A stretch of 38,435 bases of DNA from a virus, in the IMG/VR virus record IMGVR_UViG_3300010370_000008, positions 1 to 38,435 of that record; one strand, 5' to 3'. The notes under the pieces are model-generated. The model searched no databases. It was not told the origin of the DNA and saw only the letters and a program-made list of their open reading frames with translations. Every line of letters starts with the position of its first letter. Within the stretch, counting starts at the first letter, position 1. This document shows positions 12,842-38,300 of this stretch, piece after piece. The position numbers and the translations under genes are program-made.

Positions 12842-13526
12842 CGGAGCCCTTCGCCTTCTGGGCGTTTTGGCCGAAGGGGAGACGCCGTCTGCGGCCACAT
12901 CGCAGGACGCGCTGTTCGCGCTCAATCAGATGATTGACTCTTGGGGTACAGAAAAACTTTCGACCTTTACGACCCAAGAGCAGGTTTTTAATTGGTTGCC
13001 TGGCCGCATCAGTCAGACGCTTGGTCCTTCTGGCGATTTTGTTGGCGACCGCCCCGTTTTGATGGACGACGCAACCTATTTTGTGGATACGTCAACCGGC
13101 ATTTCCTACGGTATCAAGCTGATCAATCAGCAACAGTACGACGGAATCGCGGTCAAAAGCGTCACCAGCACTTTTCCACAGGTAATGTGGATAAACACGA
13201 ATTTTCCAAACATCGACATGCACATTTATCCAGTACCCACTAAAATACTGGAATGGCATTTCATATCGGCGGCGCAACTGACCCAGCCTGCGACGCTCTC
13301 GACCGAGCTGTACTTTCCGCCCGGCTACTTGCGGGCGTTCCGGTACAATCTGGCTTGCGAAATCGCGCCCGAGTTTGGTATCGAACCGCCCGCCACTGTC
13401 GGACGCATCGCGATGTATTCCAAGCGCAACCTTAAGCGGATCAACAACCCCGACGACATCATGTCGATCCCCTACGCCATCGTCAGCACCCGCCAGCGGT
13501 TTAACATCTTTGCCGGGAACTTCTGA
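12816..13526 (+). CDS. Head-tail adaptor / tail accessory factor, P22 gp4-like
   Basis: A 236-aa protein with the typical gp4-family N terminus (MTTAGDQINGALRLLGVLAE followed by NQMIDSWGTEKLST) and an ending rich in RQRFNIFAG. In P22, gp4 binds the portal ring and begins tail assembly after packaging; the same is inferred here. It is longer than P22 gp4 (166 aa), as in many gp4-like proteins of environmental podoviruses. It overlaps the preceding small gene by 26 bases and its TGA overlaps the next ATG (TGATG). Confidence 0.85.
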   Translation: MTTAGDQINGALRLLGVLAEGETPSAATSQDALFALNQMIDSWGTEKLSTFTTQEQVFNWLPGRISQTLGPSGDFVGDRPVLMDDATYFVDTSTGISYGIKLINQQQYDGIAVKSVTSTFPQVMWINTNFPNIDMHIYPVPTKILEWHFISAAQLTQPATLSTELYFPPGYLRAFRYNLACEIAPEFGIEPPATVGRIAMYSKRNLKRINNPDDIMSIPYAIVSTRQRFNIFAGNF

Positions 13527-15064
13527 TGCAGACGCCCATCCTTGGCTCCGCGTATGTAGCCCGCAGCGTCAACGCTGCGGACAACCGTATGGTCAACCTG
13601 TTTCCTGAAGTGCTGCCGGAAGACGCGGGCGGTAAGACCTCGGCGTTTTTGCAACGCGCACCAGGTCTGCGGTCGCTCGCCACCATCGGCACAGGCCCGA
13701 TCCGTGGACTGCACTCATATGGCAACTACATGTATGTCGTCTCCGGCAACAGCCTGTACCAAGTCGATAGCAGTTACCGTACCGTTCTGCTGGGCACCGT
13801 CGCCAACGACGGCCCCGTGTCGATGGCGGACAACGGCATCCAGCTTTTTATTGCCTGCGCCGGTCCCAGCTACATCTTCAACAACACCACCAACGCCTTC
13901 GGCCAGATTACCGACCCCGATTTCCCCGGCGCAACAACGGTTTCCTATCTGGATGGCTATTTCGTCTTTATCGAGCCCAACAGCCAGCGTGTGTGGACCA
14001 CGGCCATTCTCGACGGCACGTCGATTGACCCGCTGGATTTTGCAAGCGCGGAAGGCTCGCCCGACAATCTGGTGTCGTCCATTGTGGATAACTCCGAAGC
14101 CTGGCTGTTCGGCACTAACACCATCGAAGTCTGGTACAACGCCGGAAACGCCGGGTTTCCGCTCCAGCGCATCCAAGGCGCGTTCATGGAGATCGGTTGC
14201 GCGGCGGCGTTTTCGGTCGCCAAGCTTGACAGCACCGTCTTTTGGTTGGGCGCGGACACACGCGGCAAGGGCATTGTCTATCGCGCCAAGGGCTACCGAG
14301 GCATCCGCGTTAGCACCCACGCCGTTGAGTGGCAAATCCAACAGTACGCCAACATCAGCGATGCAACGGCTTACACCTACCAGCAAGACGGCCATGCGTT
14401 CTACGTGTTGTCATTTCCGTCCGCCAACGCGACGTGGGTCTACGATGTAGCTACAGGCGCGTGGCACGAGCGCGCAGGGTTCGCTAACGGCGAATTTACC
14501 CGTCAGCGCGCGGCGTGTCAGACGTTTTTCAATAACGCGGTGACGCTGGGCGACTACCAGACCGGCGAAATTTACGCCTACGATTTGACCCTGTTCGCGG
14601 ACGGCGGGCGCACCCAGAAATGGTTGCGTTCGTGGCGGGCGCTGCCGACAGGCACCAATAACCTGCGGCGCACCGCGCAACACAGCCTGCAACTTGATTG
14701 CGAGTCGGGCGTGGGTCTAGACGGTGGAACGCCTGCCGTAACTATGTACGTCAGCAGCATCTCGTCTACGGCGGTGTCTGGCGACGCCATCGGCGGCGAA
14801 ACGGAAGAAACCACGGACGAGATAATCGTGCAGGGCACGAACCCTCAAGTCATGCTGCGTTGGTCGGACGACGGTGGGCACACATGGTCTAATGAGCATT
14901 GGAAATCAATGGGTATGATCGGCGAGTACGGCAAGCGCGTCCTGTGGCGCAGGCTTGGCATGACTCAGAAGATCCGCGACCGCGTGTACGAGATTTCCGG
15001 TACTGACCCGGTCCCTGTCTACATCATGGGCGCGCAACTGATTGTGAGCCCCACCAATGCTTAA
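13526..15064 (+). CDS. Tail hub / packaged-DNA stabilisation protein, P22 gp10-like
   Basis: A 512-aa beta-propeller-like protein, near the 472 aa of P22 gp10. The start (MQTPILGSAYVARSVNAADN followed by NLFPEV) and APGLRSL are hallmarks of the gp10 family. The middle has VSYLDGYFVFIEPNSQRVW, NTIEVWYNAGN, and a C-terminal segment ending DPVPVYIMGAQLIV. In P22 it plugs the tail channel below gp4 and binds the needle. Starts on the preceding stop and overlaps the next gene by eight bases. Confidence 0.92.
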   Translation: MQTPILGSAYVARSVNAADNRMVNLFPEVLPEDAGGKTSAFLQRAPGLRSLATIGTGPIRGLHSYGNYMYVVSGNSLYQVDSSYRTVLLGTVANDGPVSMADNGIQLFIACAGPSYIFNNTTNAFGQITDPDFPGATTVSYLDGYFVFIEPNSQRVWTTAILDGTSIDPLDFASAEGSPDNLVSSIVDNSEAWLFGTNTIEVWYNAGNAGFPLQRIQGAFMEIGCAAAFSVAKLDSTVFWLGADTRGKGIVYRAKGYRGIRVSTHAVEWQIQQYANISDATAYTYQQDGHAFYVLSFPSANATWVYDVATGAWHERAGFANGEFTRQRAACQTFFNNAVTLGDYQTGEIYAYDLTLFADGGRTQKWLRSWRALPTGTNNLRRTAQHSLQLDCESGVGLDGGTPAVTMYVSSISSTAVSGDAIGGETEETTDEIIVQGTNPQVMLRWSDDGGHTWSNEHWKSMGMIGEYGKRVLWRRLGMTQKIRDRVYEISGTDPVPVYIMGAQLIVSPTNA

Positions 15065-29830: not shown

Positions 29831-32173
29831 ATGCAAGAACAACAATTCTACGAGTATATCACGGGGCTTGCCCCAGCAGGCGAGACGGCACTGCTGGTGC
29901 GCCAGAAGCCCGTCATGCGCGACGGCGAGCAACAGACGTTCCTTGACGGTTCGCTAAAGTACACCTGGCCCGCGTACATGCCCACCAAGCCGCGCGAGGA
30001 AGGCGAGGCGTGGTATCTTAACACTGGCTCGTTTATGGCGTCACGCTTCCTCGACGGTAGGCCCAGCGCCAGCGCCGCCAACTGCGATTACGTCCTTTGC
30101 ATGATGCTGGATGATATTGGCACCAAGTCCAAGGTGCCTCCGTTGCCGCCGACGTGGATCATGGAGACCAGCGAAGGTTCTTTCCAGTGGGGCTACGGTT
30201 TCAGTGAGCAGCCATCCAAGGGCGAGTTCAGCGCGGCCATTACCGCCATTGCGGAGGCAGGCTACACGGACCCCGGCGCAATCAACCCAGTACGGAATTT
30301 CCGTATTCCCGGTTCTGTCAATCTGAAGCCCGGTCGCGATCTCTTTCGTTCGCGTTTGGTCGAGTTTCACCCAGATCGTGAGTACACGTTACCTCAGATC
30401 TGCGAGGCGCTGGGCGTCACGCCAGCGGAGGCCGACACGGCGCGCGTCCTGTCGTTCAAGCTGCGCGACACCGGCAAGGACACCGTGCTGGAGTGGCTCA
30501 ACAACGCCGGTCTGGTGCTGTCGCAGACGAATGCAGAGGGATGGATGGGCATTGTGTGCCCCAACCACGCCGAACACACGGACGGCCAGATCGGAGCCCG
30601 CTACAAGCCGTTGGATCGGTCGTTCTGCTGCTACCACGGCCACTGCGAGGGATTCAATTCGCAGATGTTTTTGAAGTGGGTGCATGAAAATGGCGGCCCA
30701 CGCGTCTCGCCAGGTCTGCGCGACGAGTTGCTGGCGCAGCACATGCAGTCCACGCTATCGAAACTGTCGCCCACAGAGGCGTTTCCTGACGAGGCCGCCA
30801 AGGTTATCGCCGAAGTGGAGCGCAAGGAAATCGGACGCGTGGACAAGGCGAACTGGTACGAACGGTTCGCCTACATCATGGAAGACGACGCCTATTTCGA
30901 CATGGACGCCCGCACCGAGATCAGCCGGAGCAGCTTCAACGCCATCTTCCGTCACGTCACCTGCAAGTCCATCCACGTCACCGGCAAGGGCGGACGGCGC
31001 ATCGAGGCCAGCGTGTGCTATGATGAGAACCGCGCCGCCGCCAACGCCCGGCTGCTGCGCGGCATCACATACGCCGCCGGTGATGGGGTGCTGGTGTCGC
31101 GTGACGGTGACGTGTACGGCAACCGCTGGCGCGACGCCCGGCCTGACCTGAGCGGCGTTGCGTCCGGCGACGTGTCCCAGTGGCTCGATCATTGTCGGAC
31201 GCTGGTGCCCGAAGAGGCTGAGTTAAACCATTGCCTCGACGTGATGGCGTTCAAGCTCCAGAACCCGCGCGTCAAGATCAACCATGCGGTGCTGCATGGC
31301 GGCGACGAAGGCTCCGGCAAGGACACCATGTGGGCGCCGTTTATCTGGAGCGTTTGCGGGCCAGGACTCAAGAACAGGGGTCTGGTGGACAACGACGGAC
31401 TGACTTCGCAGTGGGGCTATGCGCTGGAGTCGGAGATCCTGATCCTGAACGAGCTGAAGGAGCCTGACGCCAAGGAACGCCGCGCGCTTGCCAATAAACT
31501 CAAGCCCATCATCGCCGCGCCGCCGGAGACGCTGCCGATCAACCGCAAGGGTCTGCACCCCTACGACATGGTCAATCGCATGATGGTGCTGGCGTTCACC
31601 AACGATCCCGTGCCTATCTCGATCTCGTCCGGCGACCGTCGCTGGTTCTGCATCTGGTCCGCAGCGGGGCGCATGGACCCAAGCGCGGCTCAGAAGCTCT
31701 GGGGCTGGTATCGTAGCGGCGGGTTCGAGACCATAGCTCGGTGGCTCGCAGACCGCGACGTGAGCGCCTTCAATCCGTCTGCGCCGCCCATGTGGACCGA
31801 GTTTAAGGAGAACCTGATCGAGAACGGCATGAGCATCGCCGAGAGTTACATCTTGGACCAGATCCGGTCCAAGACCGGTGAGTTCGCCAAGGGCGTGGTC
31901 GCTACGCCGTTCTTTAACCTATGCCAGTATTTGACGGTGAACGCCCCCGGCGGCGTTAAAATCCCGCAGGCCGCATTGCTTCACGCTCTTAAAGAGGCCG
32001 GATGGGTGGACATGGGGCGCATAGGATCGTTCGAGCATTCCAGCAAGCGCCACATCTACGCTGCGCCCGATCTGGCGCGGACGCAGACGAAGAGCTATCT
32101 GCGAAACCTGCTGGAAAGCGGAAACGGCGGCGGCGGTAATGTAATCGGCTTTCCTGGCCGTACCGCAAGCTGA
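29831..32173 (+). CDS. Primase-helicase (RepB-like primase plus SF3/D5-type helicase)
   Basis: A 780-aa fusion. The N-terminal primase half has an acidic motif MMLDDIGTKS (91-100) and RNFRIPGSVNLKPG (155-168), typical of RepB/AEP-like phage primases. A Cys/His cluster follows (Cys243, His246, Cys266, Cys267, His269, Cys272), a probable zinc site. The C-terminal helicase has Walker A GGDEGSGKDT (490-499), then ILILNELKEP and a segment ending MMVLAFTNDP, as in SF3/D5-like ATPases (DUF5906-like). It begins three bases after the polymerase stop with GGGGTAGGAC as ribosome binding site and ends the replication operon. Confidence 0.93.
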   Translation: MQEQQFYEYITGLAPAGETALLVRQKPVMRDGEQQTFLDGSLKYTWPAYMPTKPREEGEAWYLNTGSFMASRFLDGRPSASAANCDYVLCMMLDDIGTKSKVPPLPPTWIMETSEGSFQWGYGFSEQPSKGEFSAAITAIAEAGYTDPGAINPVRNFRIPGSVNLKPGRDLFRSRLVEFHPDREYTLPQICEALGVTPAEADTARVLSFKLRDTGKDTVLEWLNNAGLVLSQTNAEGWMGIVCPNHAEHTDGQIGARYKPLDRSFCCYHGHCEGFNSQMFLKWVHENGGPRVSPGLRDELLAQHMQSTLSKLSPTEAFPDEAAKVIAEVERKEIGRVDKANWYERFAYIMEDDAYFDMDARTEISRSSFNAIFRHVTCKSIHVTGKGGRRIEASVCYDENRAAANARLLRGITYAAGDGVLVSRDGDVYGNRWRDARPDLSGVASGDVSQWLDHCRTLVPEEAELNHCLDVMAFKLQNPRVKINHAVLHGGDEGSGKDTMWAPFIWSVCGPGLKNRGLVDNDGLTSQWGYALESEILILNELKEPDAKERRALANKLKPIIAAPPETLPINRKGLHPYDMVNRMMVLAFTNDPVPISISSGDRRWFCIWSAAGRMDPSAAQKLWGWYRSGGFETIARWLADRDVSAFNPSAPPMWTEFKENLIENGMSIAESYILDQIRSKTGEFAKGVVATPFFNLCQYLTVNAPGGVKIPQAALLHALKEAGWVDMGRIGSFEHSSKRHIYAAPDLARTQTKSYLRNLLESGNGGGGNVIGFPGRTAS

Positions 32174-32725: not shown

Positions 32726-32956
32726 TTATTTAGCATCCAGTGCTTTAACGGCGGTGTATCCGCAATCAACAACTTTTTCAAAGTTTGAGCATATTAAATC
32801 GCAGCCACAAGAATAAAACCGCAGCGCCGCCTCCAGCTTCTCGATGCGGTCGGCGGCTTTGCGCGCTACCGTGTAATCTTCCTCAAGGTTCTGCGATTGC
32901 GCGCCAATGATGACGCCAGCCACATCACGCAGCCGCTTCACAAGATCGTTAGTCAT
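32726..32956 (-). CDS. Tandem paralog 5: DLVKRL coiled-coil protein
   Basis: A 76-aa protein: N-terminal MTNDLVKRLRDVAG, heptad core ARKAADRIEKLEAALRFY, and a C-terminal part with three Cys (CGCDLIC) and a fourth in VDCGY, ending AVKALDAK. It is the last copy of a five-gene tandem family. Its ATG lies in the last codons of the preceding paralog (ATGACTAA overlap). Function unknown; the coiled-coil core suggests oligomerisation. Confidence 0.75.
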   Translation of the reverse strand: MTNDLVKRLRDVAGVIIGAQSQNLEEDYTVARKAADRIEKLEAALRFYSCGCDLICSNFEKVVDCGYTAVKALDAK

Positions 32957-33227
32957 CTTTCCCCTCCAGTGCTTTGCGGGCGACGTACCGACGGCGGTTT
33001 ACTTGACCAGCATAATACTCCGCCTTGTTTTCCGGCGTATCTGTGCCGTCTTCAATCATTCCTTGTAGCCCATAGTCGTTCTGCGCGATTAGCCGCAGCG
33101 CCGCCTCCAGCTTCTCGATGCGTTCATCGCGTATCTTTGCTGCATATTTAGCAGCAATTTGCACAGTATTGATCTGTGATCGAAGCTCTGCGTTTTCCGC
33201 CCTTAGCTTCACAAGATCATCAGCCAT
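32949..33227 (-). CDS. Tandem paralog 4: DLVK coiled-coil protein
   Basis: A 92-aa protein: MADDLVKLRAENAELRSQIN begins a longer coiled coil than in its relatives, followed by IRDERIEKLEAALRLIAQ, a unique middle (GTDTPENKAEYYAGQVN), and the shared end YVARKALEGKDD. The closing codons LEGKDD form the GGAGGGGAAAG ribosome binding site and contain the ATG of the next paralog. Overlap with the upstream paralog is also eight bases (ATGGCTGA). Confidence 0.78.
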   Translation of the reverse strand: MADDLVKLRAENAELRSQINTVQIAAKYAAKIRDERIEKLEAALRLIAQNDYGLQGMIEDGTDTPENKAEYYAGQVNRRRYVARKALEGKDD

Positions 33228-33450
33228 CTTTCCCCTCCAGTGCTTTGCGGGCTATAAATGCATTTTGGCAGCTATTTGGTCGGCAGTGCTCACATGTCTT
33301 GCCGTTGCAATCCCATGCGGATGCTGCAATTTCCCGCAGCGCCTCCTCCAGCTTCTCGATGCGGTCGGCGGCTTCACTCATCGTCACCGCCGTTTCGTAA
33401 TCATCTCGCAGTGGCCCCTTATGCAGCCGCTTCACAAGATCATCAGTCAT
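33220..33450 (-). CDS. Tandem paralog 3: DLVKRL coiled-coil protein with Cys/His cluster
   Basis: A 76-aa protein: MTDDLVKRLHKGPLRDDYET, then SEAADRIEKLEEALREIAA and a distinctive CNGKTCEHCRPNSC segment, then AFIARKALEGKDG. The CNGKTCEHCRPNSC spacing could bind zinc but is short. ATG 33450 is used because it aligns with the start of the other family members; a longer frame to 33525 would overlap most of the neighbouring gene. Overlaps of eight bases on both sides. Confidence 0.77.
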   Translation of the reverse strand: MTDDLVKRLHKGPLRDDYETAVTMSEAADRIEKLEEALREIAASAWDCNGKTCEHCRPNSCQNAFIARKALEGKDG

Positions 33451-33649
33451 CTTTCTTCTCCCCAGCAAGAGCATCTTCCGCAACACTGGCTGCCCATTGA
33501 ATGCTAAGATGCCATTGATTTTCAATTATGTTTCGCAACACCGCTTCTAACTCTTTAATGCGGTCAACTGCGGCTTTGGCATCTTGCGGCATAATTCTTT
33601 CATTATGCGTGTTGTACCATTCAATTCGCTTCACAAGATCATCAGTCAT
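33443..33649 (-). CDS. Tandem paralog 2: DLVKR coiled-coil protein
   Basis: A 68-aa protein: MTDDLVKRIEWYNTHNERIM, then AAVDRIKELEAVLRNIIENQ and AEDALAGEKKDD. It is the most diverged of the DLVKR-type members in the core but keeps the same start, heptad and end. Its stop overlaps the next paralog start by eight bases (ATGACTGA), and its own ATG overlaps the preceding stop by one base (TAATG). Confidence 0.75.
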   Translation of the reverse strand: MTDDLVKRIEWYNTHNERIMPQDAKAAVDRIKELEAVLRNIIENQWHLSIQWAASVAEDALAGEKKDD

Positions 33650-33828
33650 TATTCATCCTTCCCTAGCACTGCATCAACCATATCAACGGTGCGATTATCA
33701 TCAGTCACGCAACGTATCTCCCGCAGCGCCGTCTCCAACTGCGCGATGCGGGCGCGCATAGGCTTTACATCATCCAGCTTCACATAAATCACACCGTCTA
33801 CTTTTACTGCGATATGATCATCTGTCAT
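33649..33828 (-). CDS. Tandem paralog 1: diverged MTDD coiled-coil protein
   Basis: A 59-aa protein: MTDDHIAVKVDGVIYVKLDD, a heptad core (RARIAQLETALREIRC) and an end VDMVDAVLGKDE. It shares the MTDD start, the R-I-x-x-L-E-x-x-LREI core and the GKD(D/E) end with the four downstream genes, so I regard it as the most distant family member. ATG 33828 follows the preceding stop by one base and GGGAGAAACTTAAC supplies a ribosome binding site; longer in-frame starts would overlap the zinc-ribbon gene. Confidence 0.68.
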   Translation of the reverse strand: MTDDHIAVKVDGVIYVKLDDVKPMRARIAQLETALREIRCVTDDNRTVDMVDAVLGKDE

Positions 33829-33829
33829 G

Positions 33830-34042
33830 TTAAGTTTCTCCCGTTTTTTTAACATATTCTGAGGATGTGTTAATTTCATCGACAGGTGCTGGGCCGCAGA
33901 AAATCCCCATCGCATTCGTTTCGCACATAGGGCAGCGCAGCGACTTTCCTATCGCCGCAGCTACATCAAGTGGCATAGGCAAATGGAATGCAGCCCATTC
34001 GTGATTGCATTCGCCGCAGTGGACGATGAATGGGGTTTTCAT
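33830..34042 (-). CDS. Small zinc-ribbon protein
   Basis: A 70-aa protein with two Cys pairs: CGECNHEW near residues 9-16 and CPMC near 37-40, with a further Cys at GIFCGPAP. The spacing matches a zinc ribbon. The region between (FHLPMPLDVAAAIGKSLR) links the two pairs. Likely a small nucleic-acid or protein-binding factor; function unknown. Its ATG is within the closing codons of the upstream gene (GAAATGAAAA overlap). Confidence 0.75.
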   Translation of the reverse strand: MKTPFIVHCGECNHEWAAFHLPMPLDVAAAIGKSLRCPMCETNAMGIFCGPAPVDEINTSSEYVKKTGET

Positions 34043-34482: not shown

Positions 34483-34791
34483 TTAGGCGGCTCTGGTAAG
34501 GTCATCCAATGGGTGGGGCATGGCGACGGGCGCCTGCGTCAGTTCGCGCAGCGCCAGTTCGAAGTAGCCCGCGCCGTCCTGCCAGTGGTCGGGATGAGCT
34601 GGGTCGCCGCACAGGATGCGCGCCATCTTGTCGGCGATGACCTCCAGCGCCTGCGCCTGCGTCACGTCGAGGCGTTCCCAGTTGCGCGACGAGCGCAACA
34701 GGTTCTTGATGGCTTGCGAGTAGCCCGCGACCTCGCGGAAGGAGCCGTGGGTTAGCTCGCGGTCGGCTAGTATCTGGTCAATCATGGTCAT
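34483..34791 (-). CDS. DUF6378-like protein
   Basis: A 102-aa protein with the DUF6378-type pattern: ILADRELTHGSFREVAGYSQ near the start, QALEVIADKMARILCGDP, then HPDHWQDGAGYFELALREL. The His/Asp arrangement (THG, GDPAHPDHW-D) resembles small phage proteins related to MazG-type nucleotide hydrolases, but I would not assign an activity. It overlaps the upstream DnaA-like gene by four bases (ATGA), which fixes the start at 34791 rather than the longer frame. Confidence 0.8.
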   Translation of the reverse strand: MTMIDQILADRELTHGSFREVAGYSQAIKNLLRSSRNWERLDVTQAQALEVIADKMARILCGDPAHPDHWQDGAGYFELALRELTQAPVAMPHPLDDLTRAA

Positions 34792-35192
34792 GGCGTGTTT
34801 ATCCAGTTCTGGAGGGCGTTCATCACGGTTGTGTGGTCGCGGTTGCAGTAGATCGCAATCTTTTTGAGGGACCATCCATGCCTGCGCAGGGCGACGTAGA
34901 CGGCGGTGCGCGCGGCTATGTAGGGCATGGTTCGGCTTGGCCCCATAGCCTGCTCGAAGGTCATGCCGTGGGGCGCCAGCGCCTCGCGGACGATGGCCTT
35001 GGCGGCGCTGGGCGTGAACCGGAACGCCGGACCAGGCGGTTCGCGTTCCGGTTCGGGCGGCGGGGGCTCCGGTTCGGGCGCCGGTTCGGGCGGCGGGGCG
35101 ACCAGCGCCGGGCGGGGCGTCGGGCGCGGGGCGTTGAGCCTGGCGCGCACGGCCTTGTAGTGGTCGGTCAGGGCTAGGAAGTAGTCGCTCAC
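34788..35192 (-). CDS. DnaA domain IV-like DNA-binding protein
   Basis: A 134-aa protein in three parts: an N-terminal helix (SDYFLALTDHYKAVRARL), a Pro/Glu-rich linker (about residues 21-55) and a C-terminal domain (about 60-130) resembling the DNA-binding domain IV of DnaA. YIAARTAVYVALRRHGWSLK then KIAIYCNRDHTTVMNALQNW carries the RDHTTV signature (118-123), whose Arg, His and Thr residues read the DnaA box in the host initiator. No AAA+ ATPase domain is present. GTG 35192 overlaps the upstream stop (GTGA). It could recognise host DnaA boxes or the phage origin. Confidence 0.8.
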   Translation of the reverse strand: MSDYFLALTDHYKAVRARLNAPRPTPRPALVAPPPEPAPEPEPPPPEPEREPPGPAFRFTPSAAKAIVREALAPHGMTFEQAMGPSRTMPYIAARTAVYVALRRHGWSLKKIAIYCNRDHTTVMNALQNWINTP

Positions 35193-35383
35193 GGGACCAT
35201 CTCCATCAGCCAGCGCCGGGCGTCCGCTTCGTCGCGGGCGTAGCCCAGCGCCCCTAGGACGCTTACGCAGCGCCATGCGCGGGCGTGGGTGCGCTTGTAG
35301 CGCACGGGGCCGTAATGGCCCAGCAAACGCCCGTAGTAGCTCACGGTGCGCGTTGCGTCGGGGTGGGTCTGGACGGTTACCAT
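35189..35383 (-). CDS. Small basic protein of unknown function
   Basis: A 64-aa protein, MVTVQTHPDATRTVSYYGRL followed by LGHYGPVRYKRTHARAWRCV and SVLGALGYARDEADARRWL. It is rich in Arg, Tyr and His, with no catalytic motif recognised. Placed between two coupled genes: its ATG shares a base with the upstream stop (TGATG), and its stop overlaps the GTG of the DnaA-like gene. Longer in-frame reading upstream would overlap the preceding gene. Confidence 0.65.
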   Translation of the reverse strand: MVTVQTHPDATRTVSYYGRLLGHYGPVRYKRTHARAWRCVSVLGALGYARDEADARRWLMEMVP

Positions 35384-35658
35384 CACGCTCTCCGATTTTG
35401 AGCGCGCACCGCGCGCAGGATCTCGTGCCCATCGCTCGCCCACACGCCGGAGGCGCAGGGGCACGGGTGCGTCGGAAGCTCCCGCGCCAGTTCGCGGGCC
35501 TGTAGCGCGCGTATGGCGCTCAGGACCGCCTGACCGTAAGCGTGACGGTCGGCGGCGGGGTCGCGACGGTAACGGTCCAGCCCGGCGAGGGTCGGATAGG
35601 GTTTCTGATCGGCGTAGAAACCGTTCATGTCGTCATATGTGCGGATTTGCTTTGCCAT
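35383..35658 (-). CDS. Small phage protein of unknown function
   Basis: A 91-aa protein starting MAKQIRTYDDMNGFYADQKP, with RYRRDPAADRHAYGQAVLSA, then a C-terminal CPCASGVWASDGHEILRAVR. A Cys-x-Cys pair (CPC) near residue 68 is the only metal-site hint. TCTGGAGGTCTGACC gives a strong ribosome binding site for ATG 35658; an upstream in-frame ATG at 35703 lacks one. First of a run of five coupled genes extending to the DUF6378-like gene and the mini-gene after it. Confidence 0.68.
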   Translation of the reverse strand: MAKQIRTYDDMNGFYADQKPYPTLAGLDRYRRDPAADRHAYGQAVLSAIRALQARELARELPTHPCPCASGVWASDGHEILRAVRAQNRRA

Positions 35659-37292: not shown

Positions 37293-37621
37293 TTAGGCGC
37301 GTCTTTAGGCGTGCGAATTGCCCGGATTTTCGGGCTGTTAGGCTATTTAGGCTATTATCTATATATACCTTTAGAAATTTAAATGTATATTGTATAGCTA
37401 GAGTTGACGTGTAATTCTGGGAGCGACTGAAACCTGATAGCCTAAAACGACTAAATGACTATGCCCCGCGCTGACACCATTGCCCGCGTTTCATGTCGCC
37501 GTTTCGCATAGGTCATTTAGGCTATCGTTTGCCCATAGCCTAAATAGCCTAACGCCACGCGGGCGCCCGGCAAGCATCAAACGCAATGCGCGACAGTCTG
37601 CTGATGGCCTAAATAGCCTAA
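37293..37621. repeat. Iteron-like array of the 9-mer TTAGGCTAT
   Basis: Perfect or near-perfect copies occur mostly as head-to-tail pairs in both orientations. Sites: TTAGGCTAT twice at 37338-37355 (+); ATAGCCTAA at 37437-37445 (-), followed by a weaker copy; ATAGGTCAT plus TTAGGCTAT at 37508-37525 (+); ATAGCCTAA twice at 37535-37552 (-); ATGGCCTAA plus ATAGCCTAA at 37604-37621 (-). Seven copies are exact. Two extra TTAGGC cores lie at 37293-37298 and 37305-37310. Arrays like this are typical of replication initiator or repressor binding sites. Confidence 0.85.
37350..37405. promoter_or_regulatory. AT-rich stretch, possible unwinding element or leftward promoter
   Basis: This segment is strongly AT-rich compared with its surroundings (TTATCTATATATACC, TTTAGAAATTTAAATG, TATATTGTATAGC). 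It directly abuts the first iteron pair. It could be the melting element of an origin. On the - strand it contains GATAAT and TACAAT, both -10-like, so leftward promoters for the accessory block are also possible, although no good -35 is paired with either. Confidence 0.55.
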
Positions 37622-37793
37622 TGCGCCCATGCCCCAATCTTATTGCTGTGCTTATGTTGCTATTGTCTTGATTGTGTTGGTATTGCCTAGGCCATGTAGT
37701 AATTGCTCAGGTTAAGCTCAAGGGGGGGGTAGGGCCTGCTGCCGCCCGGTCACGGTCACGGAGGGATTGCAAACAATTTTTATTTTTTATAAA

Positions 37794-38300
37794 ATGTCTT
37801 ACATGACATGGCACACCCTCCCACACGAACCGCGCAAACTTCAGGCAACTGAGGCGCGGCTTGACGCCATCTATTGGGCGGCGCGCAATGGGTTGAAAGG
37901 TGACACGCTGGCGTTGGCTGCGGGTATGCGTCCATCTGAGTACCGGCAGCTTTGCGAGTTTGATCCACTGGCGGAGATGGCGGAGCAAAAGGGCCGCGCT
38001 GATGGCGAGATGGAAGTGTCCGGCATATTGCATGAGGCGGCGCGGGCTGGGGACGCCAAAGCGGCGCTGGAGATCTTGAAACACGCGCATGGTTGGACGG
38101 CCAAGACGGCTGTAGACATCAGCATCGACCAGACCATTTCGGTCAAACACGCATTAGAAATGGCTCAACAGCGAGTGCTGGAAGGGGCGTTTACTGTCGT
38201 GGAACAGTTAGAGGACATGGACCGTGCAGGCACCGATATACTCGGCCCAGGACGAAATGGAATTGATGTCGCGGTTATGGACGCCGGGGCTGAAGAATGA
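37794..38300 (+). CDS. terS: Terminase small subunit
   Basis: A 168-aa DNA-recognition subunit of the packaging terminase. Segments LQATEARLDAIYWAARNGLK, LALAAGMRPSEYRQLCEFDP and AEMAEQKGRADGEMEVSG match the small-terminase type of many podovirus-like phages; AARAGDAKAALEILKHAHGW and an oligomerising helix (SVKHALEMAQQRVLEGAF) follow. It lies directly before terL and overlaps it. Start uncertain: ATG 37794 and ATG 37803 have no ribosome binding site in their T-rich leader, whereas GGAGGG at 37760-37765 is better placed for codons further upstream. Confidence 0.85.
   Translation: MSYMTWHTLPHEPRKLQATEARLDAIYWAARNGLKGDTLALAAGMRPSEYRQLCEFDPLAEMAEQKGRADGEMEVSGILHEAARAGDAKAALEILKHAHGWTAKTAVDISIDQTISVKHALEMAQQRVLEGAFTVVEQLEDMDRAGTDILGPGRNGIDVAVMDAGAEE

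Follow-up and report, generated by a model that had tools for sequence, protein, structure and literature searches.

What does a phage gain from the DNA-reading domain of the bacterial initiator DnaA once the ATPase motor is gone? The question is raised by a small gene in one virus record from IMG/VR, analyzed here over its whole length of 38,435 bases (the window). The record belongs to a tailed phage, as judged from a P22-like portal (phrog_156), a family A DNA polymerase, a DUF5906 primase-helicase, and an exonuclease (Pfam, PHROG). Stand-alone readers of DnaA boxes are common in phages, where they are named replication initiators, while a relative, GafY, is a transcription activator. What is new here is the anatomy: a conserved N-terminal segment, a nonconserved Pro/Glu linker, a gene linked to a clade, and a lack of box enrichment.

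A stand-alone DnaA domain IV

The 134-amino acid open reading frame (ORF) is real, and the coordinates and frame given in the initial annotation are right (Table 1). Translation starts at a GTG at 35192, and the stop codon is at 34788–34790. The ORF overlaps both neighbors by 4 bases, at the stop codon of the upstream gene and at the ATG of the downstream gene, which makes the GTG start plausible. Against the relative L011, codons of the DnaA-IV domain differ by 6, 6, and 14 changes at positions 1, 2, and 3 (74 codons), and in five relatives compared the changes in the domain are mostly in third positions. In the linker, second-position changes nearly equal third-position changes in some of these pairs.

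Table 1. Positions of the gene, its parts, and its surroundings in the window
Feature	Position	Strand	Basis or remark
Stand-alone DnaA domain IV protein gene, 134 aa, GTG start	34788..35192	(-)	ORF reading and Pfam
N-terminal helix, residues 3–19, motif HYKxVRxRL at 11–19	35136..35186	(-)	AlphaFold2, alignment
Variable, probably disordered linker, residues 20–60, Pro/Glu-rich here	35013..35135	(-)	AlphaFold2, alignment
DnaA domain IV fold, residues 61–132	34797..35012	(-)	Profile, AlphaFold2, fold comparison
RDHTT, residues 118–122, start of predicted recognition helix (120–132)	34827..34841	(-)	Alignment
Upstream small gene, GTGA overlap	35189..35383	(-)	Scanned as 35189–35392
Downstream gene, DUF6378-like/phrog_16943, ATGA overlap	34483..34791	(-)	Scanned as 34483–34806
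Seven copies of TTAGGCTAT, noncoding region upstream of terS	37338..37621	both strands	Candidate context

The upstream neighbor had no match in Pfam, PHROG, or PADLOC, and the downstream neighbor resembles DUF6378 at a level under the cut-off (E = 0.00071). The order of small gene, DnaA-IV gene, and DUF6378-like gene is also found in L040. The DnaA-IV gene sits in a leftward run of small genes, convergent with the primase-helicase gene (29831–32173) and divergent from terS, which is at the right end of the window. The gene at 37767 is called terS because it precedes the terminase and resembles terminase small subunits; family searches gave it no name. Within the window, PADLOC gave no match, and no Rfam families or tRNAs were found. 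Small adjacent ORFs at 32726–33915 have MTDDLVKR..., IEKLE..LR..., and ALEGKDD-like stretches in common and are probably tandem paralogues.

The C-terminal part of the protein is a DnaA domain IV, as had been recognized from its sequence, which includes RDHTTV at residues 118–123. PF08299 (Bac_DnaA_C) matched 34809–34973 with 32.3 bits (E = 3.5e-9; cut-off 31.5 bits), and an hmmscan of the whole protein gave 31.1 bits (E = 2.5e-7), 0.4 bit below the cut-off. The match is not due to chance, because all 38 proteins of our alignment (A3, the window protein and 37 relatives) matched this family at E ≤ 0.01. No AAA+ family was detected by Pfam at E ≤ 1, and NCBIfam DnaA models align to the C-terminal part only, in agreement with the annotation of the ATPase part as absent.

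AlphaFold2, run with the 38-row alignment, predicts helices from residue 61 to 132, mostly with pLDDT of 87–93. The closest solved folds are the DNA-binding domains of DnaA, which make up the top five VIA rows (Z 9.2–10.1), followed by ParB/Spo0J (Z 6.7). Among the bacterial domain IV structures with this fold (Mycobacterium tuberculosis 3pvp and 8btg; Aquifex aeolicus 1l8q), 8btg_C gave Z 10.1 and rmsd 2.1 Å over 76 positions, and 3pvp_B gave Z 9.2 and 1.9 Å over 73. Foldseek assigned 3pvp_A a probability of 1.00, with a best E of 0.017 for this small domain. Unlike bacterial DnaA, the window protein has neither an AAA+ domain nor domain I.

In DnaA, bases are contacted by R399, P423, D433, H434, T435, and H439, as described in part of PMC7561715. 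TnCACA is recognized by the helix-turn-helix, and the TTA end by R399 through the minor groove (excerpt of PMC5742627); the same basic loop and helix are described in an excerpt of PMC11511705. The E. coli numbering was carried over by means of part of the E. coli sequence together with an alignment to M. tuberculosis. By this alignment, the protein keeps four of the six base-contacting positions (R87, D119, H120, and T121, equivalent to R399, D433, H434, and T435) and differs at the remaining two, P423 being K110 and H439 being N125. Over the 38 rows, D433 and H434 are found in all, T435 in 32, R399 in 31, P423 in seven, and H439 in four. Given the published contacts and the four that are kept, the protein would most naturally be expected to read a DnaA-box-like site, although the two changed positions leave some doubt.

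A conserved N-terminal segment and a variable linker

The initial annotation had also suggested that the N-terminal helix and the Pro/Glu linker tether the protein to a partner. The helix has pLDDT blocks of 73 and 80 in the AlphaFold2 prediction, and the linker is of low confidence (57–62). H11, Y12, V15, and R18 occur in 37 of the 38 rows, the other row having a gap. The 12-residue segment that holds HYKxVRxRL is better conserved than the DnaA domain itself: among relatives found through the primase (21 rows, 20 of them usable for residues 8–19), mean identity to the window protein is 0.80 for residues 8–19, 0.53 for the domain, and 0.40 for the linker. In 11 rows the domain falls below 0.45 identity, and the segment still has 0.58–0.92 in the ten that possess it; L074 is without the motif. 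The linker is charged and ~67 residues long in L002, L014, and L015, and only ~25 residues long in L022. The helix side of the tethering proposal is thus strengthened, whereas a Pro/Glu-rich linker is not characteristic of the family.

A profile of the motif, run over 27,489 ORFs, gave E < 0.3 only for ORFs holding a DnaA-IV domain and for L109, an amidohydrolase with a chance HYKAVRARL that had been fetched by this motif itself. A tblastn search of phages with the N-terminal 30 residues returned two irrelevant matches (E = 7). For bacterial or prophage relatives in genome contigs, a first search found none and a second found one, this same amidohydrolase.

Protein-based searches yielded 3 loci and then, with patterns including HYK, 23 loci. 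A primase-based search, independent of the motif, yielded the best 80 of 364 loci. By profile, a DnaA-IV domain is present in 68 stop-to-stop ORFs from 109 records, several of which overlap or repeat. Presence of the gene was scored in primase loci having at least 4.5 kb after the primase, the other 34 of 80, with shorter sequence, being excluded regardless of whether they showed the gene. Among those scored from the best 80 of 364, the gene is present in 13 of 13 loci with primase identity of at least 82%, in 6 of 6 with 68–73%, and in 0 of 27 with 64–67%, some loci being near-duplicates (L044 and L045; L030 and the window). The gene therefore tracks the phage clade, with 19 of 19 nearer relatives and none of the 27 more distant ones carrying it.

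A third search, with a broader alignment that used HYK partly as a pattern, yielded the best 80 of 383 loci, all 80 with a DnaA-IV ORF. By pattern, a Walker-type motif is found in the same ORF in eight of these 80, and a ninth ORF (L136, 401 amino acids) is of AAA length and was missed. The N-terminal motif occurs with no Walker pattern in 22 of the best 80 of 383, a frequency biased by the use of HYK. Three AAA+ DnaA-like proteins (L163, L120, and L152; PF00308 and PF08299) on contigs classed as viral have LM[RQ]HY(K/E)E(V/L)R(A/R)RM ~20 residues from the start; L120 and L152 are 92% identical. They match the N-terminal profile weakly over the 27,489 ORFs (E of 0.4, 14, and 110 for L163, L120, and L152, respectively). 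Judged only among the eight AAA+ ORFs, chance would be a less likely source of this motif match, and our case is not rested on it. O-like replication genes are found close to L163 and L120, and in the case of L163 a phage repressor gene is nearby as well.

Stand-alone phage DnaA-C proteins are a known kind, already named in UniProt, PHROGs, and GenBank. The best relative, A0A6J5TDM3 (BFVD), belongs to a set from uncultured Caudovirales phages with the UniProt name 'Chromosomal replication initiator, DnaA C-terminal', which comes from the database only; it is 61% identical to the window protein over 129 columns, nearly the whole length (E = 2e-10). Stand-alone DnaA-C genes are also annotated in GenBank for the pelagiphages Skadi, HTVC203P, and HTVC024P and for MW202711 and MW202483, and according to an excerpt of PMC6811365 DnaA occurs in all HTVC010P-related genomes. 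Unlike the window protein, two of the pelagiphage proteins and that of MW202483 are without HYKxVRxRL; the MW202711 copy has HYKQVRNRI if translation is begun upstream of the annotated start. The literature searches made found no test of the function of phage stand-alone DnaA-IV proteins, and excerpts of PMC9437464 and PMC6209633 had no bearing on it.

Candidate DNA sites

A search for matching DnaA boxes showed no enrichment of them in these phages. With at most one mismatch, TTWTNCACA was found 34 times in the window versus 43 expected. The window has three exact boxes, compared with a mean of 1.09 in 400 third-order Markov simulations, 10.5% of which had at least three. In 18 related records, exact boxes number 38 versus 32 for a reversed control pattern (our sums). 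Two exact boxes close together, at 13172 and 13186, form a pair that recurs in the record of L035; no close pair arose in the 400 simulations. We rejected this pair as a site. It lies inside a well-conserved structural gene, where it encodes STFPQVMWI, and the second box is lost through a synonymous change (ATA to ATC) in L191–L193, which argues for a coding by-product; the first box is retained in L190–L193, and L196 had no match to the peptide filter in this comparison.

Within 1 kb upstream of terS, TTATCCACA with at most one mismatch occurs in none of 13 carriers of the gene (the window and 12 loci, including the near-identical L030) versus 9 of the 24 noncarriers listed, some of which have four to seven copies. 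L099, a noncarrier in which the terS pattern was missed and which is outside the count of 24, contains TGTGGACAA nine times. In several relatives without the gene (L099 at about 13404–13700, L105, L106, L101, L102, L081, and L093), the region upstream of terS contains arrays of (T)TGTCCACA-like boxes, which have a single mismatch to the E. coli DnaA box.

In the window itself, some of the TTAGGCTAT copies are in 9-bp tandem beside an AT-rich stretch, as in an iteron-like control or origin region. Other carriers have differing repeats in the same place (CCCTGCCC, CGCCAATC, AGGGCAGG, and others), while the recognition helix is constant in the close clade, RDHTT(V/I)(M/L)NAL. Because the repeats change and the helix does not, the protein is unlikely to be their general reader, and we rejected them as its general sites; they could be sites in single phages.

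A block just upstream of terS (about 37735–37800 in the window), GCCGCCCGGTCACGGTCACGGAGGGATTGCAAACAATTTTT, around GCCCGGTCACGGTCACGGAGGG and with the element GGTCACGGTCACGGAGGG, is nearly invariant in 11 of 11 carriers. The 9-mers CGCCCGGTC, GCCCGGTCA, and ACCGGGCGG are exact in 11 of 11 carriers versus 0 of 25 noncarriers; with one mismatch allowed, they occur in 1, 6, and 3 of the 25 noncarriers, respectively. L066 and L068, which have more distant DnaA-IV proteins, have a degenerate form of the block. The block could be a promoter, a packaging site, a translated leader, or inherited sequence.

Possible functions

We tentatively favor, at a probability of about 0.38, a sequence-specific DNA-binding adaptor with a docking helix that switches phage promoters, its most likely partner being RNA polymerase. 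DnaA domain IV would be bound to a 9-bp DnaA-box-like site, and the flexible linker would leave the HYKxVRxRL helix free to dock there on a partner protein. The polymerase would be reached through its sigma factor, as by the Caulobacter GTA activator GafY. We infer from the anatomy described above and from precedent that the protein binds DNA, which site it recognizes, that it docks and on which partner, and that activation follows.

A phage transcription regulator is the leading guess because GafY, a stand-alone DnaA-IV protein, is a sigma-70-binding activator. Among the functions the initial annotation put forward, transcription control has the best precedent, in GafY and GafA. As described in parts of the sources, Caulobacter crescentus GafY (earlier called HdaB) shows homology to DnaA domain IV and is proposed not to act through oriC (PMC9632790); it contacts RpoD domains 3–4 directly and co-activates the GTA promoter with IHF (PMC11150451), a model repeated in PMC13236601. 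GafA of Rhodobacter capsulatus was reported to bind 75–125 bases upstream of the TerS start codon, and activation of the GTA promoters to need its DnaA-like part (excerpt of PMC9638019). By published description, GafY and the N-terminal part of GafA are DnaA-IV-like and are found in phage-like elements; the window protein likewise has a stand-alone DnaA-IV-like domain in a phage context, given by the portal, polymerase, and primase.

By analogy with GafA, the nearly invariant block upstream of terS may speak for transcription, but it may also reflect shared descent, a packaging site, or a translated leader, and nothing ties the protein to it. Other points go against this reading. GafA departs from DnaA at R399 (E8) and T435 (S43) according to an excerpt of PMC9638019, and the window protein does not depart at these positions. 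The mutated GafY site contains ACTATG (excerpt of PMC11150451), which is not a DnaA box. A GafZ-like (DUF6456) partner, as would be expected beside a GafY/GafA activator, was not found by Pfam in the three neighboring genes scanned. The AAA+ proteins with a similar motif, two of them near O-like genes, point to replication, and the repeats upstream of terS vary although the recognition helix stays the same. With modest confidence, the literature would tip the choice toward transcription.

The kept base contacts would also suit a protein directed at the host, which would occupy DnaA boxes at the host oriC and at DnaA-controlled promoters and so block or mistime initiation, its helix perhaps contacting a second host protein. 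Such blocking would be compatible with boxes not being enriched in the phages and with the absence of TTATCCACA upstream of terS in carriers. However, absence of boxes from the phage is negative evidence, the contrast between carriers and noncarriers amounts to one clade split and is not independent, and copy-number effects of GafY overexpression are ascribed in part of PMC9632790 to GTA production rather than to oriC. We regard this reading as somewhat less likely than the promoter-switching adaptor; if true, it would be a simple way of shutting down host initiation. About as likely is a replication recruiter, in which the protein would sit at the phage origin and its helix would bring in the phage primase-helicase or host DnaB, in the way that DnaA domain I recruits DnaB. 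PHROG 27829, matched at E = 0.0076, is named DnaA-like replication initiation protein, and both the AAA+ proteins near O-like genes and the seven 9-bp repeats next to an AT-rich stretch fit such a role. The repeats differ among carriers whose recognition helix is constant, though, and the matches of L163 and L120 to the N-terminal profile are weak. Moreover, since none of the 27 phages with 64–67% identical primase carries the gene, that replisome does not need it. Recruitment of host DnaA to phage DNA, also raised by the initial annotation, finds no support: domain IV would compete with DnaA for boxes, and the control region shows no cluster of them. The prophage protein YfdR is reported to bind DnaA.

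The putative docking helix is the feature most worth pursuing, as a conserved helix with a partner that can be fished makes the question of function decidable. A broader proposition is somewhat less likely still in our judgment: a widespread phage adaptor family in which a fixed HYKxVRxRL docking helix accompanies a DnaA reading head, either bare or with an AAA+ motor, so that the host DnaA-box code would be reused to bring a single shared partner to the DNA of host or phage.

Plasmids gave weak matches to the DnaA part only, in seven actinobacterial records. Two Nocardioides plasmids have stand-alone DnaA-type helix-turn-helix matches near the start of the record (NZ_CP124682.1, 548–724; NC_008697.1, 2273–2449). 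L071 has two different DnaA-IV ORFs (13473–13802 and 14383–14931), with an HY.xVR.R motif in one only. In MW202711.1 (L005:17815–18228), the annotated dnaA, of 40 codons, starts too late, and an upstream ATG gives a full protein of motif, linker, and domain.
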